IMG/VR virus record: IMGVR_UViG_3300031772_000014
Span: 1-64,000 of that record
Origin: a virus
DNA: 64,000 bases
Direction: 5' to 3' (one strand)
Shown: positions 939 through 39,135 of the stretch, one piece after another
Position numbering within the stretch: position 1 is the stretch's first letter
Layout: each line of letters starts with the position of its first letter
The notes under the pieces: generated by a model
Database searches by the model: none
What the model saw: only the letters and a program-made list of their open reading frames with translations
What the model was told of the DNA's origin: nothing
Translations under genes and position numbers: made by a program

Positions 939-2060
939 TCAGAACTGCGACACCTGTGGAAAGCGGAGCCCTTGGTCCACCCGGTTGTTCGGGGCGCCGA
1001 GCGCGTCCTCCGCGACCGGGATGAAGTTCGCGATGAGCGAGTTCGCGTTCACCGACGAGGCGTCGGCCGAGTACAGCTCGAGCTTGCGAACCGCCGCGAC
1101 GTTGATGACCGACATCGCGATGTCTTCCCACGCCTGGAAGCTGATCGTGTTCGCGACCTTGTCGATGTAGAACTTCGTGTTGTTCAGGACGTAGAACTTC
1201 CCGAAGAACTCGGGGCGCGTGAAGATGTACACGTTGCCCGGACGAAGGATGTCGGTCTTGACCGTACGGATGTACGCCAGTCCGAGGATGGTGTTGTACT
1301 TGTAGCCGTCGACCGCGGTCTCGCTCTGGAGGCGGTCACCGAAGTCCTCGACGGTCCACTGGAGCAGGTCGTCGTAGTCCGGCTCCGTCATGAGCAGGCG
1401 CTCTGCGCGGAGGCGGTTGGTGTCGAGCAGCTTGCGGAGGTTCACGATGTCCGGGCGCTGGATGGGGCGCACGATGGCGTCGTTGGTCAGCGCGGTGCGT
1501 GCGAGCTCGCCCTTGCGGACCGAGAACTCGACCACGGTGCCGGCCAAGATGGTGCTGCGGTTGAGCGCGACGGGGGTGCCGCCGTTCGCTTCCGTCTGGA
1601 GAGCCTGGACGGCCGACTCGATGTGGGTCGTGAACTCGCGGTCCTCGATCTCCTGGATGTCCTTCACCGAGTTGTCCTCGATGATCTTCGTGATGGGCAT
1701 CTCGTAGGCGAGAAGCTCCTGCTCGGTCTTCTGGAACATCTCCGAGGAGATGGTGAAGAACGCGACCTCGGCCCTGCTGCCACGGATGAAGCGGGCCGTG
1801 GGCTGGCCGCGGAACGTGATGGCCATCGCGCGGCTCTTCGGCTCCACGTCCACGATCTTGACGAGCGTGTCGTGGTTGACGGAGCGCTGGCAGTCGGCGC
1901 GGGTGACCTGCTGCGGGGGAATCACCTTGCGGGCGAAGGAGACTTCGCGGAGGCGGTCGCGGATGTACGTACCGCCGGCCTCCGCGAGCTTCTCCTTGCC
2001 CTCGGCGCTCCCCAGCTTCTGGGTGAACATGTCGTTGAGGACTCGTGCGGGAACGCTCAT
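939..2060 (-). CDS. Probable major capsid protein
   Basis: 373 aa, ATG at 2060 with AAGGAAA about 8 nt upstream, stop TGA. The size fits a HK97-fold capsid protein, and the order protease, scaffold-like and internal proteins, decoration protein, this gene is the usual head-gene order. Residues about 1-40 are helical and charged, as in capsid N-arms, followed by a long mixed domain with tyrosine-rich strands near 280-320 (GNVYIFTRPEFFGKFYVL). There is no catalytic motif. Assignment as the capsid rests on context and length, not on a recognised signature; another abundant virion protein remains possible. Confidence 0.6.
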   Translation of the reverse strand: MSVPARVLNDMFTQKLGSAEGKEKLAEAGGTYIRDRLREVSFARKVIPPQQVTRADCQRSVNHDTLVKIVDVEPKSRAMAITFRGQPTARFIRGSRAEVAFFTISSEMFQKTEQELLAYEMPITKIIEDNSVKDIQEIEDREFTTHIESAVQALQTEANGGTPVALNRSTILAGTVVEFSVRKGELARTALTNDAIVRPIQRPDIVNLRKLLDTNRLRAERLLMTEPDYDDLLQWTVEDFGDRLQSETAVDGYKYNTILGLAYIRTVKTDILRPGNVYIFTRPEFFGKFYVLNNTKFYIDKVANTISFQAWEDIAMSVINVAAVRKLELYSADASSVNANSLIANFIPVAEDALGAPNNRVDQGLRFPQVSQF

Positions 2061-9287: not shown

Positions 9288-10007
9288 ATGAATGGCGCCA
9301 AACAGAAGCGTGAGACCGGAGAGCTCGTAACCCAAACGGAGGCCGCGAAGCTACTGGGCGTGCCTCCGAAAGCCGTCCTTCGCTTGATTGAAAGGGGAAT
9401 CCTGGAGCCTGTAGCCCAGCGAGGGACCAAGAGGTGGTTCGACCTTCGAGACGTTTCCGCCGCTTCAGATGCCCTCGAGCAGAAGCTCAGCTTCGCAGGA
9501 ATCCTCGAGACGAGCGTACGTGCTCACACGGCCGCTACCAGGGTCGAACGCAAGATCAACGCCCTCATGGAGTTCTTCGGGATGGAGACACTTCAGCCAC
9601 AACCCACGAAGCCACAGGTCGAGGCTCACTTCGCCCAAGGTGACCGACTGGCCCTTGGGAGCGAGTCGCTATCCCCAGCGGACATGATGCGCTGGGCGAA
9701 GATCATCATGCGGATCGACAGCTCTTACCTGACCCTCGTGGGGCACTACCTCAAGAAGAAGGAACCATGGGTGGTCTTCCTTCTGGGAACCGACCGAGCA
9801 CTCAGGGCGGTCCCCATCGAGCAGATGCAGGACGACCCCGACACCGTGATGGCCGTCTCAATGCTCTCGTACGCGAGAAAGTGCCTGGTGGGTGAGGCGT
9901 ACATCTACTGCCGGTTCACGCTCGGAAGGCAGAAGGCCGACATCAAGTTCCCCGACAACGCTCGAGGAGAGATGAACGACATCATCGGGGCCCTTCTTCG
10001 TTCGTAA
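9288..10007 (+). CDS. HTH DNA-binding protein; candidate small terminase or regulator
   Basis: 239 aa, ATG 9288 preceded by AAAGGAAT. Residues about 13-60 (TQTEAAKLLGVPPKAVLRLI, then ERGILEPV) match the MerR/excisionase-type helix-turn-helix (HTH_17) with a following wing. The rest is an unassigned alpha/beta domain. It is a lone plus-strand gene inside the minus-strand virion block, convergent with the large terminase. Adjacency suggests a small terminase subunit, but the opposite strand argues for a separately timed regulator. Its TAA stop (10005-10007) is exactly the position where the terminase frame reads TTA on the other strand. Confidence 0.8.
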   Translation: MNGAKQKRETGELVTQTEAAKLLGVPPKAVLRLIERGILEPVAQRGTKRWFDLRDVSAASDALEQKLSFAGILETSVRAHTAATRVERKINALMEFFGMETLQPQPTKPQVEAHFAQGDRLALGSESLSPADMMRWAKIIMRIDSSYLTLVGHYLKKKEPWVVFLLGTDRALRAVPIEQMQDDPDTVMAVSMLSYARKCLVGEAYIYCRFTLGRQKADIKFPDNARGEMNDIIGALLRS

Positions 10008-11870
10008 CCCCTGCCAGAGGGGTCCCGTGTACATCGACTGGATGCCACCTCGATGCTGATCCTCTCGGAGAGGCGCGATGACGTCGGGCCGAGGGAAGCG
10101 GATCATCGAAGCCAGGAAGCAGTAGAGCACCGAGTGGAATGCATCGTCGGTTCGATCCTGCCGGTGGTTGTACTGCGTGATCCTGAGCTGCTCGTTGTAC
10201 TCCGAGAAGATGTTCGTGAAGTCCTTCCCGTAAGGCTCCTGGAACTCCTCCCACCTCGGAAGTTCGAGGACGTTCCCACGCTTGATGGCGTTGAAGATGT
10301 CGCTCATGACCTCGCTCCGGGCGACCTTGTACCGGCGGAACTTCTGGTCGTACTCGACCTTCTTCCGGATGCGCTGCATGTACTGAAACTTCGCCAGGCG
10401 CTGCGGCCCGAACTTCCGGGTGATGATGTCGTTCATGTGGAAGCCGCCGCCGTAGTCGGCTCCGATGATCATCACCTTGAACTTCTCGAGGATGTTGAGG
10501 ATGAGCTCCGTTTGGTACGGGATCTCCAGCTCCTGTCCCTCGAAGCGGTGGATGTAGAAGATCCTGAACGTGTTCCCCACCGCGTAAGTCCCGAGGCTGA
10601 TCACCGTGTAGCTGTTCTCACCGGTGCCCCAGTCGATGCCAGCGAAGACCGGGTTCTGGTACCCCGGGGGCTCGTACTTGGACATGCCTTCGTCCGTCAT
10701 CGTGGACTGCGCGTTGCAGCAAGCCTGGACCTGAGCGCTGCTAAGCGGACGTAGACCAGAGTCGAATGAAAGACCCAAGACCTCGTTGAAGAACTTGTCC
10801 CGTGGGTAGCGGCGGTAGTCGAGCGTGATCTCTTCCCATGGCTTCCAAGGAACCATGAGCTGGGAGATCCGGTAGCTCTCGAAGACCGCGTCCGGGCTCG
10901 CGTGCGCCCACGCGGCATCGGCGTGCTGGGGGAAGATCTGCTTCCCGCACTTCTCGCAGATGAGCGAGTCCTTCCCGATGTTGCGCTCACCGAGGATGTT
11001 CCAGAAGCGCCCCGCCCCGCCCTTGACGGTGGACCCGCAGGAGTCACAGGGGACCGCCCACTCCCCCTGAGTGGACATCGCCTGCCCTCGAGCCACGCCA
11101 GAACGGTAGAACTCGATGTTGTTGTCGAGGCTCTTCGGGGTGCCGGCGTAGATGAACTGCTTCAGGTTCTCGGGGGCGTGGCTGGTACACTGCTCGATGA
11201 CGGGGATGTTGTCCGAGAGAAGGTCTTGGAACTCATCGCACTCCAGCATGTACGCCGGGATACCTCGGGTTCGGTCGGCGTTCAGGAAGGCGTTGCGGAG
11301 CGTGATCTTGGAGAAGTTGTTGAACTGCTTCTCGAAGATGTTCTGCGCCATCATGTGGGCCGCGAAGGACTTCAACGTCGGGCTCGTCTCGATGGGCTCC
11401 TTGATTCGGTCGTTCGAGAACGTCTTCGTCTGGGTGCTCGTCGGGGAGACGTAGAGCGTCTTGTACCCAGGGATGAGGCACGAGAGCGAGACGGCCTTGT
11501 TCCCGAGGAAGGTCGACTTCTCAACCTGTCGAGCGCAGAAAAGAAAGATGCGCCGCGCCGGCGTGTTGTAGATCGGGATCATGTGCCGACGACCCTCGAA
11601 CGAGAAGTTCTCGTACGAGAGACCATCGGTCGTGGGCATCCTGAAAGCGAACTCAGTGAAGTGCGAAAGCATCACTGAAGCAGGAGGCTCTTCCTTCCTC
11701 TTCCCTCGAGGAATGAAGAAGGGGTTTACCTTCTGGTGCCTCCACTCGGAAGGAAACCACTCGGTGAAAGAAGCCGAATCCTCCGAGTCGTCCGTGTCTT
11801 CCAGGTCTGCTTTACTGAACGTCGCATCGTCCATGTATTCAAACCCACCTAGGTATCCCGAGCTAGTCAT
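10005..11870 (-). CDS. terL: Terminase large subunit
   Basis: About 621 aa from ATG 11870. The ATPase domain has a Walker A-like CARQVEKST at about 112-120, Walker B LECDE at 209-213 and a possible motif III (YAGTPKS) near 241. A zinc-ribbon insertion (CDSC at 275-278, CEKC at 305-308) separates it from an RNase H-like nuclease starting at GIDWG (411-415), with a second acidic site in GADYGGG and DRTDDAFH near the end. Role: packaging motor and DNA cutting. Alternative start ATG 11834 has a stronger AGGTGGG site. By the standard code the frame continues through TTA at 10005-10007 to 9858, antisense to the neighbouring gene. Confidence 0.93.
10007..10023. terminator. Short hairpin between convergent genes
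   Basis: ACCCCT-GCCAG-AGGGGT forms a 6-bp stem with a 5-nt loop directly after the TAA of the plus-strand HTH gene. There is no T tract on either side, so it may only slow or separate the convergent transcripts. Confidence 0.3.
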
Positions 11871-15749: not shown

Positions 15750-16379
15750 TCAGATTGGGAAGTTGGGGGCGAACATGAACTGAAAGGCGCCTACGGCGGC
15801 CGGGGCCTTGGTGACTACCATGACACCATACGTGATGTCGGGAGGGTTGAAACCATCGGCCGGATAGGACGGGTACCCGACGATCTGCCCAAGGGCATTC
15901 ACGAAAGGTTGCCCGGACCATCCGTACAAAGCGCAGCCACCCAAAGAAAGGGCCGCTTGAAGTTGAGCCAGGAAGTTGATGCCCGCCAATCGTATCCCGA
16001 GGGACAGGTCTATGAGAAGATTGATGCCGCCGATCTTCAGCAAGAGAGCCGCCGCGAGGGCGATGTTGACCGATACCTGGATGCTGATCGGAGGGATCCC
16101 GATGGCCAGGGAAGCCTGCAAGGCCGCGATGACGGAGATGCTCGCCGCGATGGCCATCTTCAGCGCCGTCAGGGGATCCCCGAAGGCAATCGAGATCCCG
16201 ATGGAGGCGTTGAACTGCGCGACCAGATCTGCCTTCAAGGGACCGAGCCCGAACGCCCCTGCGAGCATGAGCTGAATCTGGGCGAGTAGCGGGGGCAACG
16301 CGAGCGAAGCCTGGAGAGCCCCGGACACGCAGGCCGATAGGGGAACAGGACCAGCAAGTTTAGCGAAAGGAGTGGGCAT
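15750..16379 (-). CDS. Hydrophobic Ala/Leu/Ile-rich protein next to the spike
   Basis: 209 aa from ATG 16379 (MPTPFAKLAGPVPLSACVSG). Residues about 15-150 are a near-continuous run of Ala, Leu, Ile and Gly with amphipathic periodicity (LPPLLAQIQLMLAGAFGLGP and similar repeats), ending in a small Tyr/Pro/Gly-rich beta domain. This could be a membrane-inserting or fibrous baseplate component. The start lies 2 nt after the TTA that seems to end the spike gene; by the standard code the two would overlap by 145 nt out of frame. Confidence 0.6.
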   Translation of the reverse strand: MPTPFAKLAGPVPLSACVSGALQASLALPPLLAQIQLMLAGAFGLGPLKADLVAQFNASIGISIAFGDPLTALKMAIAASISVIAALQASLAIGIPPISIQVSVNIALAAALLLKIGGINLLIDLSLGIRLAGINFLAQLQAALSLGGCALYGWSGQPFVNALGQIVGYPSYPADGFNPPDITYGVMVVTKAPAAVGAFQFMFAPNFPI

Positions 16380-16381
16380 CG

Positions 16382-17698
16382 TAAGGCCATGACAGCCGGA
16401 TTGCCGGTCGTGATTGAACCAACCGCCGGGGTCGCAATCGTGATGACGCCCGTGAAAGGCGAACCGTTCAAGAGCCCAGATACCTGCGCGACCGGGATCA
16501 CGATGGCCACGCTGTCGCCCATACGGGCCACGGGCTGCGTGCCTGACCCAAGACGAATCTGATCTCCAGATACCTCCGTGAGCGCTTGCCCGCCCACGAC
16601 CATGCTGGTCTTGGCCTTCAACTCTGCGTTGTCGAACGCCAAGGAGAGGCTGCCGGCACCCTTGAGCGAGAGACCCTTCTTGAAGTCGATCACGCACCCG
16701 CCCTCGGACCTGATGAAGACCCCGCCGGCCCGGTCCATGATGAAGTGCATGGTCATCTGCTTGGCCACCGCGGGGTTCGCCAGGTCTCCGGTACCGGCCT
16801 TGAAGCCACCTGGCGCGATGACGACCTCCATGACGACCGGGGCCGTGGTCCCGATACCGGCGTTCTGGAGGTCGCTCGTCGAGTCACCGAAGAACGTGCT
16901 CCCTACCTTGGGTGGCTCCGTGACGGGGTTGAGGACCTTGCCCTTCGCGATGCGGATGTCGCAGAACTGATCGTTGGCGAAGAGCCGATAGGTCTCCATG
17001 TGCTGTGCGGCCGGGTTGTCGATGGATGGTCCTTCCTGGATCCCCCACTTGATGGCCCCGCCCACGTTCTGGTGCTCGTAGTCCCCGGACACGTCGAAGA
17101 TCTTGTTCGCGAGCGGGATGTAGATGCGCTGCGCCAAGCTCGAGCCGCCGATCTGAAGAACGCCGCCTCGATGAAGGATGACGAAGTTCCCGTCACGTCC
17201 CTTCATGAACACGTCGCCCGGCTTTATCTCCGGCCTACCGCCATCGAAGCGGGCGTCGTTATGCGGGAACTCCACCTTGCCGCTGCGGGAGCGTGTGCCC
17301 TGCGGGGCGTCGGTACCGGTCAGGTCACCCTGGTCCACGAGCTGATTGCTCTTGATGGACGTCGTGATGGCATCGTCAGGATTCCCGAGCGGCTTGGACG
17401 TGTTGCCAGCCTGCTGCATCGGCATGATGAACGAGTTCACGAACGGCGGAGACGAATCGCTGGGGATGCACACGAAGCACACCGCACCGACGTCAGGCAT
17501 CACGAAGATGCCCTCACCGCTGTTGTAGTGCATGTACGGCGAGCTGACCTGGATGTCGTAGTAGTAGTGCCGGTCGAACTGCGAGATGCAGTCCACGGTG
17601 TAGTTCACCAGGTTCACGTTCATGACCCGGCACTGGACCATCTTCGACGGTCGCTGCCCTTCCGACCGGCCACCGCCACCATCATACCTACGCGTCAT
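16382..17698 (-). CDS. Baseplate spike / gpV- or gp5-like protein
   Basis: About 438 aa from ATG 17698, overlapping the RNA polymerase stop as ATGA. Residues 20-110 (VQCRVMNVNLVNYTVDCISQ, then GIFVMPDVGAVCFVCIPSD) fit the OB-fold of gpV/gp5/VgrG spike hubs. The C-terminal part has the spike-tip pattern ARMGDSVAIVIP ... GVITIATPAVGSITTGNPAV. It would form the membrane-piercing trimer of a contractile tail. The frame reads TTA at 16382-16384 right after GNPAVMA, a natural end; by the standard code it runs on to 16235 with an Arg/Ser/Cys/Pro-rich tail over the next gene. Confidence 0.75.
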
Positions 17699-20600
17699 AA
17701 GTACACGTGGGAGGGCACGACGTTTTCGCCCTTGGCGTTGCGAGCAAGCCGAGGAAGACCGAACTCAGCCCCGTAGACCACGCCAGGAATCGGATGGGCT
17801 CCGTGGATGCTGGAAACCATCCCCGTCGCGGCAGCTTCCGAGATGGTCGTACGGAGACGTTGATGCTGAAGGCGGGCCATCCAATCATCATGCAGAGACA
17901 AGGGGAGCATGTCGACTCCCATGAGCACTGGGCTGTGCAGGATCTGACCCTTGCCACCGGTCTTCAAGTCTCGGTTCATCTGGTTGATCACAGACGTCGG
18001 ATAGAACTCTCCCCGCATCAAGTGCGGGTGGTCGCCAGGATCTTCCACCTTCGTGATGTTCGACATCGCACGAACCATGACCTCTATGGCGCGTCGACGA
18101 ACACCTTCAGCCTTGTAGAGATCGTGGATCTCATCGGCCAGATGGTTCTGTACGTGGTCCATGCTCTTGGTCGCCTTGTAGAGATCGTGCGGGTTCACGA
18201 CCGTACGAAGCGGATCTGACAAGGAGCGCCCTGCCTCCACGTGCATCCCCACGGTCGGTGGCGTCCACAGGGCCTGACCCTTCGGCGGAATGGCTCCTGG
18301 AAGATTGATGTGAAGGTCCAGACCATTGTCGTCCTTGCCGACGAAGTGCGATGTGCCGCCGACCCAGATGCGCGTACCCGTGGACTCCTTGTCGATCTTG
18401 TCGATCTTCCCAGAGGCCATCGAGACCGTGGCGGAGTTCGGGATCTTCTTGTGCAGCTTCGTGAGCTGCTCGAAGCGAGCGAAGGAGTTCACGGCCTTTG
18501 AGCCGCCGCCAGACTCAGCAACGCCTCCCGTGTGGAAGAGCTTCAGGGTGAGCTGCACCGCCCGCTCCCCAACCGCGTGCGCGGCCTGGATGCCCACGTT
18601 GGTACCGAACTGGTGCTCCTCCCCATCGACAGAGGGCCCCATGCACTTCTGGCAGATCCCTTTCGGGCTGTCGCACTTCAGCGGACTTCGCACCAGCACC
18701 TTGGCGTTCTTGTCCACCGCACGCATCTGACCCACCAGGTCCGGGGTGACCAGCGTCCCCGCGGGGATGTGGAGCCCACCGGACCTGAAGTCTGCTGCGA
18801 GGTGCCGGTCATGCACGTCATGCTCGGAGAGCGCCATCGAGATGCCCTTCGAGGTCCCGCAGTCGTGCTTGTCGATCATGAGGTTCATCGAGGTGTTCAT
18901 CAAGAGTTTCGACATCGCGCCGGGCTCCTGGACCTCCTGGACCTTCATGACGGTTCCTCGACGAGCTCCGTGGAGCTGCGTCCAGTACTCCCCTAGGTCG
19001 AGACCTTCCGCGTAGCTGTTCTTGATCGGAACCGGGATGTTCTGGCTCTTGGAGTCCTTCATGATGAGCGGGGACATCACCATCTGCTTGTACTGGTCCC
19101 AGCTCGGCTTGGTCCCGGCGGCGGCCATCATGAACAAGTTCGAGGGGTTCTTCTTCGCCTCCTCCTTGTGCTGCGTCTGCATGTCCTCGCCGGCCTTGAG
19201 CCAGACGTTCACGGACTGCCGGTCCTTATCCTTCTCGTTGATGGTCTTGCTGCCGTTGATGGCATCCACCTTCGTCTGCGCGGCCTTGAGGATGGGGTCC
19301 CTGACCGAACGGATGGGATCGAAGTCCTTCAGGCTGAGCGAGTGCGTCCCGATGGAGAGGTGCTTGTCGGGGATGAGGTTCGTCTTGATGATCCCGTACG
19401 AGGCGTCGTACCCCAAGTCCTTCACGTCGTTGATGACTCGACCGAAGTCATGCCGGTGATCTTTGCCCAGGGTATCGAGCATGGTCACCAACCCCTTCTT
19501 GTCCACCTGGAAGTCCAAGTCATGCAGAATCTTGTTCTGCATCGGCTTCGGGAGGATGTTCGCCAAGAGCACGCGACCAGCCGTCGTCTCCTTGCCATTC
19601 AGGTGCACGATGTCCGTGTAGTCAATCTTGCCCGTGTGCAGGGCAGAAACGACCGATGCGTGGTCGGCGAACTTCTTGTCCGTCTTCTTGTCCGTCCGCG
19701 AAAGCTTGTAGAGACCCAGAGCAGACTCCAACGTGGGGCGGTACATGACCTCCCCGGAGGACTCGCTGAAGATGTTCTTCGTCGGGTACATCCTCTCGGC
19801 TTCCTTCACGGCCTCGTGGCTGATGGGGACGTAGACCGACATCGCGTCTCCGTCGAAGTCAGCGTTGAAACCACCCGTCACGAGAGGGTGGATCTTGATG
19901 GCGCTGCCTTCGACCGTCTTCGCCTTGAACGCCTGGACGGAGTACTTGTGCAGCGCAGGGTCACGCTTCAAGATGACGGGGCGCTCGCTCATGACCTGGT
20001 CGAGAGCTTTCCAGACCATCGGGTCCTTCTTCCCACGGTGCACCTCAGACAGCTTCTCCTGGGCATCGAGGGTGTGCGCGGCCGTGCCTTGCTGCACAAG
20101 CTGTCGAACCACGAACGGACGAAAGAGCGTGAGAGCGGCTTCCCTGGGAAGACCAACCTCGTCGAGCCCAAGGTTCGGCTCTGGGACGATGGTGGAGCGC
20201 ATGGTCATGTCCTGCTTGCGCTGCGCCAACGTCTTCTGGAAGTAGCCTTCCTTCGGCTGAGAGCCGGCAATAACCTCGAGGATGCCCTTCTCCTTCTTGT
20301 CCTTGTTCACGCTCCCGATGCCCATGATGGCTTTCACGCCGTCGTAGTAGGAGGTGCGCTGCTCTACCTTCCCCGCATCCGTGAGGTTCTTGGAGAGGAT
20401 GGGATCCTTGAGCTTGGTGTTGATCTGCGCGAACTTCATGTAGAGGCCGTTGATGTCCTCGTACTTGATGGCTCCCTGCTCCATCTGATTGATGGGACGG
20501 GTGTTCGGCGGCATCACGGGCAGGTTGTGGAGGATGTACGCCTCAGAGGGCTTCATCCCCAAGTCCTTGAGGACCGTGAGGTACTTCACTTTCTTGAGCG

Positions 20601-23600
20601 CTCGGTCCACGTTCCCAGGTGACGTGGACCCCAACTCGAGCTTCGCTTTCGCTAGGTCCTTGGTCACGTCGATCCTGTCGAGCAGCGTCTTGATACCGGG
20701 GCCTCCACGGACACCTGCCACGCTGGTAGTGATCTCTCCCGTCCCAGGCACGACACCCTTGGTGCCGTCGATGATGGAGTTGAACTGCTTCTGGGTGATG
20801 CCCGTGAGCTTCTTGATCGGCTCCTGGAAGAGCGGGTTCGGAAGCGCTTCCGCGAGCGCGATGTGGGACCACTTAGTCCCACCGTGACCGCCGGTCACCT
20901 TGTCATCGAACAAGCCACCAGGCATCGGCTCGTACTCACCGCTCTTGTTCGTCTTCGCCCGGACGGGTGAGTTACCAGCCGTCTTCAACTCACCCGCGGA
21001 CATGTTGAGGATGTGCTTGTCCGTCAAAGGGGAGACGTGGAACTCATGCCCCTTCTTCTCGATGTTGATGCCAGTACCTTGGAGCATCTGGGTGAAGCGG
21101 TGGAAAGCGAACGTCGGACGAGGCGGCGGCGGCGGCATCCCGTTCTGAATCGCGTTCCAGATGTCGTTGTGCTGGTTTCCTTGCGTCCATCGCTTCGCTT
21201 CGTTCGTCTGGATGTCGTTGCCCTCGGACTTCCAGGTCTGCATCTCTCGGATGTTCGCCTTCGCGCCGTGCGCGAGCATCGAGTAGAGCCCGAGAGCTCC
21301 CAGGCTCTGACCGCCGGCGTGACCGCCACCGGTAGGCTGGAGGAAGGAGTCGTACCCCTCCGCCTCGGTCAGCTTCGGCAAGCCCATCCCGGAACGTACC
21401 GAGAGCTTCTTGTCCACCTGGTGGACCAACTTCATCATGTACTGCTTGCCCACCAGAGCTTCCCCGATGGGGAGTTTCGTCATGGGATCGATCAGGTGCT
21501 CGGTGTCGCTGAGCCCGTGCTGCTTCAACTCACCCTTGACCTTCTCGAGGTAGTCCCCCGTGGTCGAGTCGAAGTTATGGACGAGGTACGGCTTGCCGGT
21601 CTTCTCGGCAATCTTGGACACAGCCGTCTCGAGCACCTGCCCGATGTTCATGCGTCCAGGGACGCCAGCAGGGTTCAGCAAAACCTCGGTGGGCTTCCCG
21701 TCTGCCGTGTGCGGCATCTCCTTGTTTGGAAGCACCAAGGTCACGATGCCCTTGTTGCCGTAGCGCCCGGCAATCTTGTCACCGACCTGCATGGGCTCGA
21801 TGGTGCGGACATGGACGGAGATGTTCTCTCCGGTCTTGTGGACCCCCACCACCTCACCCTTGAAGTCAGACGTCCACCGGACGGACTTGTCCGTGTGCTG
21901 GTTGATCATGCTCTTCCGAAGAGCCGCCACACCCGTCCGGTCCTTGAGCTGGTACGGCATCGTCGCGAGGATGAGCGGGTCACCAGACTTGACCGTGGCC
22001 CCAATCTTCACGACCCCGTGCTCATCAACGTTCTTGTACTGCTCCGCCGTGAAGGCTGTGAGGTGTTGCTGCCGGAACTTCTCCGGAGAGAACACCATCC
22101 CCTCCTTCTTCTCGACGTCATGCTTGTGCAAGTGCTCGCTGGAGAGCATCTGCGCGGCTGTCTCGCTGATGACCACCCCGTCCTCGAAGTTGTAACCCTT
22201 GAAGGGGATGTACGCGACGCGGAGGTTGGTACCCAGCGCCAACGCCCCGTTCTTCGAGTAGTTCGTGTCCGCGACGATCTGCCCAGCCTTCACCTTGTCC
22301 CCAACCTTCACGAGCGGGGTCGAGTTCATCGAGCTCTTGGCGTCGTTCAACGGGTAGTGATGGTAGAGCTGAATCTCGTGCTCGCCGTCCTTGCCCTTGA
22401 TCGTGATGCCGTCCTTCGTGATCCCTGAGACGACGCCATCCGTCCTCGAGAAGTGCGCGGTCTGCTTCCCCACCAGATGCTCGAAGGAGTTGATCCCCGT
22501 GGTGGTGGGAGGCGTGGCCACCTGGACGAGCGGTGCTTGGCGACCGATGAGGGAAATCGCCTGCTCCATGTGACGGCTGCCCATGCTCGCGCGACCACCA
22601 GAGCTGTTGCCCAGGAACGGGATGAGGTTCGAGGTGACGTTGAATAGCTGTGACGAGTGCCGGAGCACGTAGTCGGCTTCGACGAACTTCTTCTCTTCGA
22701 TCTTGTTCCCCTGCCCGACGATCTTGATCATGGGACCAGTCGGCACGGGCTTTCCGTCCTTCCAGGTCACCTGGTCCGGCAGGGCGACGTTCGAGGCGAT
22801 GAACTGGTGCGGGCTGATGTCCTCCGTCTTCCCGGTGCGGATGTTGAAGACCGGAATCTTCGCCTCGTTGCCGACCTTCTTCAAACCAATCGGCAGGCGC
22901 AGGGTCACGCCCGTCTTTTCACCCTCGGGGGTGTTGATGGGATCCAAGAAGCCGATGTGCGAGACGTTGATCATCTTCGCGTCAGCCGTCACCTGCCGGT
23001 CGCTCTTGATACCGCCCGGTCCCATGATGGTCGTCTGCATCGCCGCAGACACCATCTCGAGAGGATTGATCTGCTTGGCCGGGTTCGACAGGGCACTCTT
23101 CAAGAACAGGGTGCGGACGGGCTCGTTGAAGATGTCCGCTTTGATGACATCTCGAACCCCCGTCGCCTTGGGGTTGTTGAGCTGCCGCTGCATCTTCATC
23201 TGGATGACCTTGGAGGACACCCGCATCTGATCCTGGATGAAGTCCCCTGTGGAGCGCAGGGTCTTGAACGTCAGGGAGTCCCGGTCGTCCTCTGGGGCAC
23301 CACCGTGAAGGGCCAGCAACTTGTTGGACGCCCGGTGAAGAGCATCTCCGGTGACGTGCTCGAAAGCCTTACCCAGCGTGACCTGGGTCACGTCCGGGTT
23401 GATCTTCGACTCACCCATGACTTTGATGAGGTGGTCCTCCGCCGCTTCCTTGGAGGGAGCCGGGAGCTTGGTGGTGGTCTTGTAGAACTGCTCGACCGCA
23501 CCATCCACCCGCTTGCCCTTCTTGTTGGCCTCGAAGATCTCCTTGCCCCACGACTTCTCCAGAGCCTCGTCGCTGACACCCAACGTCTTCATCAGGGGGT

Positions 23601-24093
23601 AGAGGGGGATCTTGGCCTTCTTGTAGTCCGCGACGAAGACCTTCTTCTCCGGGTCGAAGACAACGTCGAAGGCAGAACGTCCAACGACGTTGAACCGGGA
23701 CTCGAGCTCTCCGTTCGCTCGACGCCTCGTGTAGACGCCAGGCTTGAGCTGCCACTGGTTGTCCACCTGGTACTCCTGCCCGTCCAGGATGTAGGAGTAC
23801 CGGCGGGTCATCTTCGGAAGGTCGGCCAGACGAACCTTCTTCTTGTCAAGGGTCTTGCCAGTCTCGTTGTCCTTCAACGAGAGCATCCCATGGATGGGAA
23901 CGGTCCAGCTCTTGCCGTTGATCTTGGCCTCGTGCTGCGACTTGATGTCGTCCGGGTGAAGCTTGTCGTCGATCAAGACCTCGTCGAGATGCAGCGTCGT
24001 GGTCCTACCTTTGAAGGGGAACGAGGACTTCAACCCTTCCACGGTCTTGTCCCGAAGGTGGTCGAACGCATCTTGAGGATTCAGGTAGGCCAT
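17695..24093 (-). CDS. Fused RNA polymerase beta-beta' subunit
   Basis: 2132 aa from ATG 24093 (MAYLNPQDAFDHLR; AGAGG upstream). Beta part, about 1-985: NTPEGEKTG at 387-395, RASMGSRHMEQ at 501-511, GYNFEDGVVIS, GDKIAGRYGNKG at 771-782 and QPTGGGHAGGQ from 919. A proline run at 987-991 precedes the beta' part: LFDDKV...GHIA-like clamp region without the usual four-Cys zinc site 1, KRDPALHK, catalytic NADFDGD at 1410-1416, bridge-helix region, and zinc site 2 with C1745, C1807, C1814 and C1817, then QAAHAVGERAVQLTLKLFHTGG. Role: DNA-dependent RNA synthesis. No alpha, omega or sigma gene is visible. Location among virion genes suggests packaging in the particle. The last sense codon is TTA before TGA. 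Confidence 0.97.
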   Translation of the reverse strand: MAYLNPQDAFDHLRDKTVEGLKSSFPFKGRTTTLHLDEVLIDDKLHPDDIKSQHEAKINGKSWTVPIHGMLSLKDNETGKTLDKKKVRLADLPKMTRRYSYILDGQEYQVDNQWQLKPGVYTRRRANGELESRFNVVGRSAFDVVFDPEKKVFVADYKKAKIPLYPLMKTLGVSDEALEKSWGKEIFEANKKGKRVDGAVEQFYKTTTKLPAPSKEAAEDHLIKVMGESKINPDVTQVTLGKAFEHVTGDALHRASNKLLALHGGAPEDDRDSLTFKTLRSTGDFIQDQMRVSSKVIQMKMQRQLNNPKATGVRDVIKADIFNEPVRTLFLKSALSNPAKQINPLEMVSAAMQTTIMGPGGIKSDRQVTADAKMINVSHIGFLDPINTPEGEKTGVTLRLPIGLKKVGNEAKIPVFNIRTGKTEDISPHQFIASNVALPDQVTWKDGKPVPTGPMIKIVGQGNKIEEKKFVEADYVLRHSSQLFNVTSNLIPFLGNSSGGRASMGSRHMEQAISLIGRQAPLVQVATPPTTTGINSFEHLVGKQTAHFSRTDGVVSGITKDGITIKGKDGEHEIQLYHHYPLNDAKSSMNSTPLVKVGDKVKAGQIVADTNYSKNGALALGTNLRVAYIPFKGYNFEDGVVISETAAQMLSSEHLHKHDVEKKEGMVFSPEKFRQQHLTAFTAEQYKNVDEHGVVKIGATVKSGDPLILATMPYQLKDRTGVAALRKSMINQHTDKSVRWTSDFKGEVVGVHKTGENISVHVRTIEPMQVGDKIAGRYGNKGIVTLVLPNKEMPHTADGKPTEVLLNPAGVPGRMNIGQVLETAVSKIAEKTGKPYLVHNFDSTTGDYLEKVKGELKQHGLSDTEHLIDPMTKLPIGEALVGKQYMMKLVHQVDKKLSVRSGMGLPKLTEAEGYDSFLQPTGGGHAGGQSLGALGLYSMLAHGAKANIREMQTWKSEGNDIQTNEAKRWTQGNQHNDIWNAIQNGMPPPPPRPTFAFHRFTQMLQGTGINIEKKGHEFHVSPLTDKHILNMSAGELKTAGNSPVRAKTNKSGEYEPMPGGLFDDKVTGGHGGTKWSHIALAEALPNPLFQEPIKKLTGITQKQFNSIIDGTKGVVPGTGEITTSVAGVRGGPGIKTLLDRIDVTKDLAKAKLELGSTSPGNVDRALKKVKYLTVLKDLGMKPSEAYILHNLPVMPPNTRPINQMEQGAIKYEDINGLYMKFAQINTKLKDPILSKNLTDAGKVEQRTSYYDGVKAIMGIGSVNKDKKEKGILEVIAGSQPKEGYFQKTLAQRKQDMTMRSTIVPEPNLGLDEVGLPREAALTLFRPFVVRQLVQQGTAAHTLDAQEKLSEVHRGKKDPMVWKALDQVMSERPVILKRDPALHKYSVQAFKAKTVEGSAIKIHPLVTGGFNADFDGDAMSVYVPISHEAVKEAERMYPTKNIFSESSGEVMYRPTLESALGLYKLSRTDKKTDKKFADHASVVSALHTGKIDYTDIVHLNGKETTAGRVLLANILPKPMQNKILHDLDFQVDKKGLVTMLDTLGKDHRHDFGRVINDVKDLGYDASYGIIKTNLIPDKHLSIGTHSLSLKDFDPIRSVRDPILKAAQTKVDAINGSKTINEKDKDRQSVNVWLKAGEDMQTQHKEEAKKNPSNLFMMAAAGTKPSWDQYKQMVMSPLIMKDSKSQNIPVPIKNSYAEGLDLGEYWTQLHGARRGTVMKVQEVQEPGAMSKLLMNTSMNLMIDKHDCGTSKGISMALSEHDVHDRHLAADFRSGGLHIPAGTLVTPDLVGQMRAVDKNAKVLVRSPLKCDSPKGICQKCMGPSVDGEEHQFGTNVGIQAAHAVGERAVQLTLKLFHTGGVAESGGGSKAVNSFARFEQLTKLHKKIPNSATVSMASGKIDKIDKESTGTRIWVGGTSHFVGKDDNGLDLHINLPGAIPPKGQALWTPPTVGMHVEAGRSLSDPLRTVVNPHDLYKATKSMDHVQNHLADEIHDLYKAEGVRRRAIEVMVRAMSNITKVEDPGDHPHLMRGEFYPTSVINQMNRDLKTGGKGQILHSPVLMGVDMLPLSLHDDWMARLQHQRLRTTISEAAATGMVSSIHGAHPIPGVVYGAEFGLPRLARNAKGENVVPSHVYL

Positions 24094-24156
24094 CGGTAGG
24101 AACCTCTTGGCACGGTACAGCACCGGCGAGTAGCCGAGCAAGAAGACGTGAAGATA

Positions 24157-24187
24157 GGGAACAAGAGTAGCGCAGGAACTTCACGCA
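24157..24187 (+). promoter_or_regulatory. Candidate phage promoter element (copy B)
   Basis: GGGAACAAGAG ... TTCACGC over 31 nt, aligned without gaps to the elements at 34177 and 39105, and followed by an AAGGAG site and the first gene of the plus-strand unit. The inner part is weaker than in the other two copies. Confidence 0.4.
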
Positions 24188-28785: not shown

Positions 28786-30885
28786 TCAGACGGAAGAGTT
28801 CGTACGTCGAGGTGACCGCTGCTCTGGTAGCGGGCGGGTATCCACCTGCGGCCCAGAACCACCACCAGGGCTGCCCTTGCCAGGAGAGACCCCCATACCC
28901 TTGAGCATCTGCATGACCAGGTCCGCGAGCTCAGGGCTCTGGGCCCGGAGGTTCTGAATCGCGAGGGCCTGCATGACGGGATCCATCCTGGAGATGACCT
29001 GCGCTTGCTGCCCCGCCATCGAGTTGATGTCGACGTTGAGCCCTCCGGCCATGCGCTGCCCGCCGTTCATCTTGCTGCTGATGAGATCGTCGAACTCCTG
29101 GCTCGGGGTCTGCTGTGGCTGCATCATCCCGATCTGCGGAGCATTCGGATCCTGCCCAGGGGCCCCAGGCGCTACAGCACCGTCTGCCGTGGGGGCTTGA
29201 CCGGCCGGTAGGTCGGCTGGCGCCGCCGCGGTAGCACCCCCAGGAGACCCGCCACCTTGCTGGAGGGCAGCGTCGGGGGCCCCGGGCTCTCCGGGGGCGG
29301 GGGCGGCCTGCTGGGCTTGCTGAGCGTCCAGTTGAGCCTTGTTCTGGTACTTCATCATCACCGCCTGAACCTTGCCCTGCACCTCCGCCATGGCGAGCTG
29401 CTGCTTCTCCGTGGCCTTGATGCGGGACTCCGTCTCCCGCTCCATGAGGGAGTTCTCCTCTTCCTGGGAGAGGTCGCTGTCCGCCAGGAGGGTCGTGTCA
29501 GAGACCTTGTTGCCCTGGTTGAGCTGCGAGAGGAACGCCTTCCGCTGGATGTCGTCGGCCATCTTGAACGGCTTGAATCGTCCACGGACGACGGGCCAGT
29601 CCAGGAAGTCCGCTACCTCCTGCATGACGAAGCGCAGGAGACCCTTGTGCCGGATCACGTAACCCAGGAACGAGTTCTCGAGCATCCGCATCGAGACGTT
29701 CGTGCCCGCGTACGAGAGCCCACCCTCGAGGAACTCTCTGGGGACCCCCATGCCCATCATGATGACCTGGTTCATGGACTGCATCTCCTGGGTCATCAGG
29801 AGAGCTTTGCCGTCACCGCCGATGGTTTGGTTCCCGATGGGAAGCGGGAGGATCGGGATGTAGTTCGGGTCGTATCGCCAGCGGGCAATCTCCGTCGCGA
29901 CATGGTCGCGCCAGTCCACGAGGTTGATGCTCGTGTACGGGTCGGCGGTCCCTGATCCTGCCTGCGGGAAGATGATCCGAAGAGGGATGATGTGCTCTAG
30001 GAGGATGGTCTCCTGAGCCTTCTTCATGATCTGGAGGTAGTAAGTGTCCTTCAGGACAGGTAGAAGAAGCGGGATCCCCCAGCCACGGTCTTGCGTGGCC
30101 AAGGTGGGCCGGCGCAGGTGGAAGAGCTTCTCGGCCGAGAACATCAGGCCCTTCTGATCCTTCAGCGCCTGGATGAAGATCTGCGGGGTGTCCTCGACGA
30201 TCTCCTTCCGACCGATGATGATGTCGTTCCGGATGAGCGCCGGTATCGTGTAGAAGTACGAGTAGTGCCCGGTGATGTCGTTGTAGGTGACCTCGATGTC
30301 CTCGGGGTTCCACCGGATGAGCTTCACCCCCGAGGCGTTCTTCACCGAGACGTCCTGCACCTTGGCGTCGCCCGTCAAGCCGCACTGCGGGCACCCGAGC
30401 CGAAACTGGTAGCTCGAGAAGACCCACTTGTCCCTGCACTTCTTCGCCTCTGATTTCCAGGAACAGTTCGGGCATGAGAGCCACTTCACGAACGGGGTAC
30501 CGACGCTGATGAACGCGTTCCCGTAGGCGAAGTAGTCGAGCCCAACCTCGATCTGGAAAGAGCGGTAGCGGAGGTGGTCCTCGAAGTAGTCGCTCCACTT
30601 CTTGACCGCGTCCCTGCTGTCGCTCTCGAACACGATGTCCGTGATCGGGTACTCGCTCAGCTTGAACACCGTCGCGTTGATGAGCGGGTTCGTGAGGAAG
30701 TAGTACCGGCACCACCGGAACATCTGCTTGACCGTGGCCGGCAGATACGTGTGCGCGATGTCGAAGAACGGGCTTGGGTAGTTGACCCCTCCACCGACAC
30801 CGTTCTGGATGCGTCCGCGCGTGTGCGAGAACCGCATCCCGTTCGCGGGACCGGCGACATTCAAACCGCCACCGATGAGAGTCAT
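28786..30885 (-). CDS. Portal protein
   Basis: 699 aa, ATG 30885 overlapping the previous stop. Residues about 40-470 follow the portal pattern: helical crown, a stem-like region with MGMGVPREFLEGGLSYAGTN and a following helical segment (MRMLENSFLGYVIRHKGLL). A zinc-ribbon-like insertion (CPNC near 137, CPQC near 164) interrupts the N-terminal wing. The C-terminal 200 residues are Gln/Pro/Ala-rich and likely disordered. Role: dodecameric vertex for packaging and ejection. Its separation from terL by about 17 kb and a plus-strand island is unusual. Confidence 0.85.
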   Translation of the reverse strand: MTLIGGGLNVAGPANGMRFSHTRGRIQNGVGGGVNYPSPFFDIAHTYLPATVKQMFRWCRYYFLTNPLINATVFKLSEYPITDIVFESDSRDAVKKWSDYFEDHLRYRSFQIEVGLDYFAYGNAFISVGTPFVKWLSCPNCSWKSEAKKCRDKWVFSSYQFRLGCPQCGLTGDAKVQDVSVKNASGVKLIRWNPEDIEVTYNDITGHYSYFYTIPALIRNDIIIGRKEIVEDTPQIFIQALKDQKGLMFSAEKLFHLRRPTLATQDRGWGIPLLLPVLKDTYYLQIMKKAQETILLEHIIPLRIIFPQAGSGTADPYTSINLVDWRDHVATEIARWRYDPNYIPILPLPIGNQTIGGDGKALLMTQEMQSMNQVIMMGMGVPREFLEGGLSYAGTNVSMRMLENSFLGYVIRHKGLLRFVMQEVADFLDWPVVRGRFKPFKMADDIQRKAFLSQLNQGNKVSDTTLLADSDLSQEEENSLMERETESRIKATEKQQLAMAEVQGKVQAVMMKYQNKAQLDAQQAQQAAPAPGEPGAPDAALQQGGGSPGGATAAAPADLPAGQAPTADGAVAPGAPGQDPNAPQIGMMQPQQTPSQEFDDLISSKMNGGQRMAGGLNVDINSMAGQQAQVISRMDPVMQALAIQNLRAQSPELADLVMQMLKGMGVSPGKGSPGGGSGPQVDTRPLPEQRSPRRTNSSV

Positions 30886-34149: not shown

Positions 34150-34176
34150 CGTATCCGCAAGAATAGCCCTTTGCTT

Positions 34177-34207
34177 GGGATAAGAGAACCGCAGCGAAGT
34201 TCACGCC
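34177..34207 (+). promoter_or_regulatory. Candidate phage promoter element (copy A)
   Basis: GGGATAAG, then 16 nt, then TCACGCC, with CTAGGAGG ahead of the start codon. The copy at 39105 has the same blocks at the same spacing, and both end 16 nt before an ATG. The sigma70-like -10 would be GATAAG, but no clear -35 is seen. Confidence 0.5.
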
Positions 34208-39077: not shown

Positions 39078-39104
39078 AGGCACAGCTAACAGACCCACTT
39101 CCAC

Positions 39105-39135
39105 GGGATAAGCAATCCGTGTGAAGGACCACGCC
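39105..39135 (+). promoter_or_regulatory. Candidate phage promoter element (copy C)
   Basis: GGGATAAG, 16 nt, then CCACGCC, followed by CTAGGAGG. It shares GGGATAAG, an inner CCG, GAAG and CACGCC with copy A at identical spacing, and is placed between a terminator and the DnaB-like gene. Confidence 0.55.

Follow-up and report, generated by a model that had tools for sequence, protein, structure and literature searches.

A predicted single-chain, bacterial-type RNA polymerase in a phage lineage related to Salmonella phage Arash, with a candidate sigma factor and promoters

Phage RNA polymerases (RNAPs) of the two-barrel type are already known, as are single-chain examples and examples carried in virions, and the enzyme described here is not categorically new. 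What is new is a single-chain form that is readily alignable with the bacterial enzyme and is accompanied by a conserved sigma gene and a class of promoter-like sites. Beta and beta' are naturally fused in the cellular rpoBC of Helicobacter and Wolbachia, where alpha and omega are also present; those fusions are of cellular origin, whereas the enzyme considered here belongs to a phage clade outside the sampled bacteria. The vRNAP/nvRNAP enzymes of the jumbo phages phiKZ and AR9 are likewise two-barrel enzymes without alpha or omega, and one of their two sets is delivered with the virion. They differ in being built from four to five polypeptides, in occurring as two sets and in being found without sigma homologs, whereas the present family has one chain from a single gene in each genome, and a sigma-70-type gene besides. 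In the crAss-like gp66, YonO and P23-45 gp96/gp64 proteins both barrels lie in one polypeptide, as they do here, and gp96 of P23-45 is a virion RNAP (PMC10770324). Those proteins have diverged so strongly that their sequences hardly reveal them, and they are members of a different two-barrel clade; unlike crAss-like gp66 and YonO, the present enzyme gives direct matches to models of bacterial beta and beta'. The mReC polymerases (Weinheimer and Aylward 2020) are also phage encoded, alignable over full beta and beta', deeply branching and not captured from a host, but their beta and beta' genes are separate, their major capsid protein (MCP) and terminase large subunit (TerL) are of other families, and they form a separate clade. 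The nearest cultured relatives are Salmonella phage Arash, with Gp206 and Gp216, and Vibrio phages D69, D148 and D181, which belong to the same lineage by RNAP, MCP, portal and sigma, and in Arash by TerL as well. In the Arash type the C terminus of beta' is separate and the catalytic motif is AADYDGD, whereas the family described here has a single open reading frame (ORF) and NADFDGD.

The window, by which we mean the whole stretch of 64,000 nucleotides that was analysed (positions 1 to 64,000 of IMG/VR record IMGVR_UViG_3300031772_000014), contains the polymerase gene and its catalytic motif at the following positions.

17695..24093, minus strand, read from the ATG at 24093 to the stop at 17695: beta-beta' RNA polymerase in a single chain of 2132 aa, with beta at about residues 1-985, the junction PPPPP at 987 and beta' at about residues 990-2132
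19846..19866, minus strand: beta' catalytic motif NADFDGD, residues 1410-1416, including D1412, D1414 and D1416

A preliminary description of this DNA had reported a beta-beta' polymerase in one 2132-codon frame, readily recognisable along both subunits, with a proline-rich junction near residue 987. The frame is real and the junction lies exactly at 987. Pfam models of beta (Rpb2_6, 3.7e-61; Rpb2_3) and then of beta' (Rpb1_2, 7.8e-29; Rpb1_5, 9.7e-16) match above cut-off, in order along the one protein, with a match to Rpb1_1 falling below cut-off. Against PDB sequences, residues 13-1011 align to bacterial beta (E 2e-90) and residues 1129-2098 to bacterial beta' (E 1e-97). The further claim that all diagnostic motifs are present holds for the catalytic core and fails at one place. 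In the family alignment, D1412, D1414 and D1416 of NADFDGD, the double-barrel (DPBB) lysines K773 and K781 of beta and the trigger-loop histidine H1854 each occur in 45 of 45 sequences, and the second zinc site is kept (C1745, C1807 and C1814 in 45/45, C1817 in 43/45). The N-terminal zinc ribbon of beta' is absent, there being no cysteine in residues 990-1130 in any of the 45 sequences. Because the features of the catalytic core are present, the missing ribbon is a feature of the lineage and no ground for excluding it from the bacterial-type two-barrel RNAPs. Judged from its sequence, the core is identified as bacterial-type two-barrel (multisubunit-type).

Structure prediction, which the preliminary description had proposed as a check together with a phylogeny and a promoter search, gave a core fold that matches both bacterial beta' and bacterial beta from one chain. 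The AF2 model covered residues 480-1679, took 40 family sequences as input and reached a pLDDT of 87.9 and a pTM of 0.80. Its best PDB matches were bacterial beta' chains, over some 740-780 columns at an rmsd of about 4; bacterial beta was matched by the same chain over about 580-615 columns. The TM-scores against PDB chains, 0.36-0.48, are in this range because each target chain spans only part of the query. At the place of the clamp helices the model has a helix pair, formed by residues 1213-1229 and 1239-1257.

A profile scan of IMG/VR returned 511 related stretches, and the best 80 of the 511 were taken. Among these, a single uninterrupted RNAP frame was found in 72 of the 73 relatives that span the full protein, at 38-64% identity; the exception, L076, stops at a contig edge with its frame open over 2023 residues. 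An open frame of 2132 codons kept in 72 relatives is not chance. Contigs of the lineage reach 199 kb, and the 75,150-base record that holds the window is therefore a fragment. Only one gene per window-family genome encodes a beta' catalytic domain, so these genomes have no second core of this type. We found no naming of the fused lineage in the open-access literature. In-frame inserts of about 344-530 residues occur in three of the RNAPs, at three different active-site positions: inside NADFDGD/TM in L012 (10001-17938), with LAGLIDADG-like motifs; after the trigger-loop histidine in L104, with intein-like ends C...HN/T; and after GRYGNKGI in L106, with intein-like ends C...GN/C. A separate observation concerns L016 (CAKLQH020000005.1), deposited in GenBank as Acinetobacter phage MD-2021a, which holds rplA, rplJ, rplL, rpoB and rpoC and is bacterial chromosome; several other unannotated "phage" matches are probably bacterial contamination of the same sort.

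The polymerase gene lies within a block of virion genes, as the preliminary description had stated, with genes for MCP, portal and TerL around it.

939..2060, minus strand: MCP, phrog_2522, homologous to Arash Gp226
9858..11834, minus strand: TerL, GpA type, PF05876, 27% identical to Arash TerL
16235..17698, minus strand: gene of 487 aa that ATGA couples to the RNAP gene; its syntenic counterparts in relatives have 409-441 aa
24282-28749: divergent operon encoding a MoxR-type AAA protein and a VWA/DUF2201 metallopeptidase-like protein
28786..30885, minus strand: portal protein, 30-32% identical to the Arash and D69 portals

The order RNAP, coupled gene, TerL is kept in all of the first 12 relatives, and in the same 12 the portal gene and the divergent MoxR/VWA operon precede the RNAP. 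The ATGA coupling that had been described is real in the window, where the two genes overlap at 17695-17698, but it is not conserved, the genes of relatives being tightly spaced only (mostly 0 to +10 nt). The coupled gene had been called a spike, an identity that is unproven; the protein has no Pfam assignment and only a marginal match, to a PHROG of unknown function, and its AF2 model is poor (pLDDT 43). The gene has a C-terminal extension of about 43 residues (16235-16370) that its counterparts in relatives lack, and it runs into the next frame; a frameshift at this place is possible. Beyond the window, G000 encodes a 1358-aa Baseplate_J-like protein related to Arash Gp13 (67409-71485) and a frame resembling a DnaQ-type exonuclease (72086-72691).

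The RNAPs of Arash and of the Vibrio phages are homologous to that of the window, at 31-34% identity (32-33% for Arash and D69), and homologues of its MCP and portal are found in Arash and D69 and of its TerL in Arash. In Arash and D69, a single gene of about 1525 residues covers beta together with approximately the N-terminal half of beta', while the C-terminal part of beta', about a third, is encoded separately. The beta-beta' junction, P-x-P-x-x-T-F-A in the alignment, is common to the window family and the Arash lineage. Because the junction is the same in this sister lineage, the fusion is old, and most simply older than the split between the two. Trees were built from beta plus beta' (1641 columns) and, more carefully, from beta' (897 columns), with giant-virus RPB1-type sequences from IMG/VR as outgroup. 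In these trees the window family is one clade (support 100) and is sister to the Arash type (100 in the beta plus beta' tree, 96/88 in the beta' tree), and a third fused group, L247, joins the two from outside (100/99). Since 72 of 73 relatives have a single ORF, and not a separate gene for the beta' C terminus as in Arash, the window family is classed as a sister of the Arash-lineage RNAP and not as a member of it. Other divisions of the protein were also seen. The fused beta-beta' of L247, L292, L299 and L309 has 1642 aa and ends soon after NADFDGD, an independent split position. In the Arash-type records L199, L203, L211, L217, L227 and L229, beta is fused with the first 130 or so residues of beta', and the rest of beta' is encoded by one or more further genes; some uncultured relatives have three RNAP pieces.

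Arash also provides data on virions. In those sections of the Arash paper that deal with the virion proteome (PMC10585845), the fused Gp206 is the most-detected protein, with 3516 spectra versus 1333 for MCP, and Gp216, the beta' C terminus, and the sigma factor Gp10 are present with 1210 and 467 spectra. The same sections note that abundant enzymes in virions could be carry-over, and they pass over the beta-beta' fusion without remark. By analogy with Arash, we strongly infer that the single-chain RNAP would be packaged in the virion of the window phage.

The window family has orthologs of the Arash sigma Gp10; they match Sigma70_r3 above cut-off, and one of them matches Sigma70_r4 as well. 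A profile built from Arash Gp10 and two of its orthologs matched in 18 of 24 window-family records and in 5 of 5 Arash-type records, a few of the scanned records resembling near-duplicates of one another. It gave no match in the other 6 of the 24, some of which are probably incomplete, and no sigma gene was found in the window's own 75-kb fragment. The Pfam models of Sigma70 regions 2 and 4 failed to detect most of these sigma genes. Neither alpha (PF01000) nor omega (PF01192) gave a match over cut-off in 17 records, with controls matching in 13-14 of 14, and we therefore speak of a bacterial-type core and not of a complete bacterial enzyme. According to reviews, jumbo phages that encode an RNAP are without sigma homologs, and jumbo phages that lack one typically carry sigma homologs for the host RNAP (PMC7598289, PMC13282480). 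The occurrence of RNAP and sigma together across the whole lineage is an unusual point, not one unique among phages. The annotated sigma gene of Cobetia phage Carin-5 adjoins separate beta' and beta genes.

Counts of words upstream of genes in three genomes led to GGGATAA and to a bipartite promoter-like motif, GCAA-N16-GGGATAAG. GCAA stands at a spacing of 16 before 12 of 24 GGGATAAG sites, and every other spacing occurs at most once. A matrix from seven genomes, three of which were those in which the pattern had been discovered, gave 105 matches at the chosen threshold, and the reversed matrix gave 3. With held-out matrices, from which the tested genome was left out, the numbers were 104 and 3, so that the result does not come from self-fitting of each genome. 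By simple gene calls made for this analysis, 55 of the 105 matches lie directly upstream of genes and 13 lie inside genes. Sites in the window include the following.

34153..34187, plus strand: promoter-like site GCAA-N16-GGGATAAGA before the SF2-helicase operon (34224...), PWM score 27.3
39081..39115, plus strand: promoter-like site before the DnaB-primase-DNA polymerase A-RecA operon (39152...), PWM score 14.5
24134..24168, plus strand: weaker promoter-like site between the RNAP gene and the divergent MoxR/VWA operon (24282...), serving the latter, PWM score 14.7

The first of these was also found by a matrix built without the window genome. Four genomes (that of the window, G012, G006 and G008) have the motif ahead of their MoxR/VWA operon, and it also occurs before the sigma gene in G012 and before many small-gene clusters and replication operons. 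Arash has two weak matches only, so the motif does not simply carry over to the relative for which virion data exist. We infer that the sigma factor pairs with this promoter-like motif and binds the phage core, and that the motif would be recognised by the phage holoenzyme.

The best reading of these observations, to which we assign a probability of roughly 60%, is that the single-chain RNAP is delivered with the virion, depends on sigma and serves early transcription. It would be the transcription core of a large lineage of tailed phages, most of them uncultured, that are relatives of the myovirus Arash. It would most likely be produced late, alongside the structural genes, and would then be packaged into the virion and injected. 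The sigma-70-type factor of the lineage would direct it to GCAA-N16-GGGATAAG promoters, and transcription would begin before the small-gene clusters and replication operons. The early role is supported indirectly, by way of the conserved sigma gene and the phage-specific motif. The preliminary description, which had suggested a virion-packaged enzyme that starts early transcription after ejection, was right as to what the RNAP is, and plausibly also as to what it does. The fuller proposal is evenly balanced between true and false: an autonomous system in which a virion-delivered single-chain core, a dedicated sigma-70-family factor and cognate GCAA-N16-GGGATAAG promoters would reproduce the logic of bacterial initiation with neither alpha nor omega, as a second deep lineage beside mReC.

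The main rival of the best reading is that the phage sigma serves the host core RNAP, in the manner of T4, and that the single-chain RNAP relies on a different specificity factor or acts in a middle or late role. Such a use of sigma is typical of the jumbo phages that lack an RNAP (PMC7598289, PMC13282480), the GCAA-N16-GGGATAAG promoters could be read by host RNAP once it carries the phage sigma, and the 6 of 24 relatives in which the sigma profile has no match would agree with it. We nevertheless consider this rival doubtful, since sigma and RNAP co-occur across the whole lineage, Arash included, and the Arash proteome data (PMC10585845) place both in the virion. The motif, moreover, is kept between phages with no more than about 50% identity in their RNAPs, and the phage core is predicted to have a helix pair where clamp helices bind sigma.

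A still less probable alternative is that the RNAP is a late or general phage enzyme whose presence in Arash virions is carry-over, with host RNAP reading the early genes. The RNAP gene does sit among the structural genes, numbers of spectra do not measure stoichiometry, and carry-over is raised by the Arash authors in the proteome sections themselves (PMC10585845). The same data, however, put Gp206 spectra above those of MCP and far above trace, with both RNAP pieces and sigma present, and a structural ortholog was found in only 1 of the 55 motif-led operons.

That the window RNAP is a member of the described mReC lineage is very unlikely. Both groups branch deeply as phage clades of beta/beta' and share NADFDGD, and a sister relation is possible, with support of 67/32 in the beta' tree; an AU test did not reject the grouping of the window family with bacteria (p 0.44). 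However, the mReC-type and window-family sequences form separate clades, each with support of 100/100, and mReC-type loci have separate genes for beta' (about 900 aa) and beta (about 1010 aa). The mReC capsid family PF07068 was found in 0 of 22 window-lineage records versus 5 of 5 comparison phages, and the window TerL is of PF05876 versus PF03237 for mReC. Membership was accordingly ruled out by architecture, capsid, terminase and clade, the reference loci being taken as mReC from their architecture, capsid family and metagenome (3300017989), not from accession identity. These loci were collected by a DNA motif scan; a scan based on Carin-5 gave only 3 loci. A recent capture of host rpoB-rpoC, possibly of a naturally fused rpoBC, is scarcely credible for this bacterial-type RNAP, alignable as it is over most of both subunits, and was ruled out by its best cellular matches of only 26-30% identity and by trees in which all sampled cellular bacteria form one clan (100 and 100/99) that excludes the fully supported window clade.

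If the reading of a virion-delivered, sigma-dependent single-chain RNAP is true, one polypeptide and one sigma would constitute a minimal bacterial-type holoenzyme. Such an enzyme would be useful for the study of assembly without alpha, of the co-evolution of sigma and core, and of the branching of phage RNAPs relative to bacteria. The promoter motif and the cultured relative Arash open a direct way to test whether early transcription proceeds independently of host RNAP. In metagenomic work, the family represents a widespread phage group with an easily aligned marker gene, present as 72 full-length single-chain loci in the best 80 of 511 related stretches.
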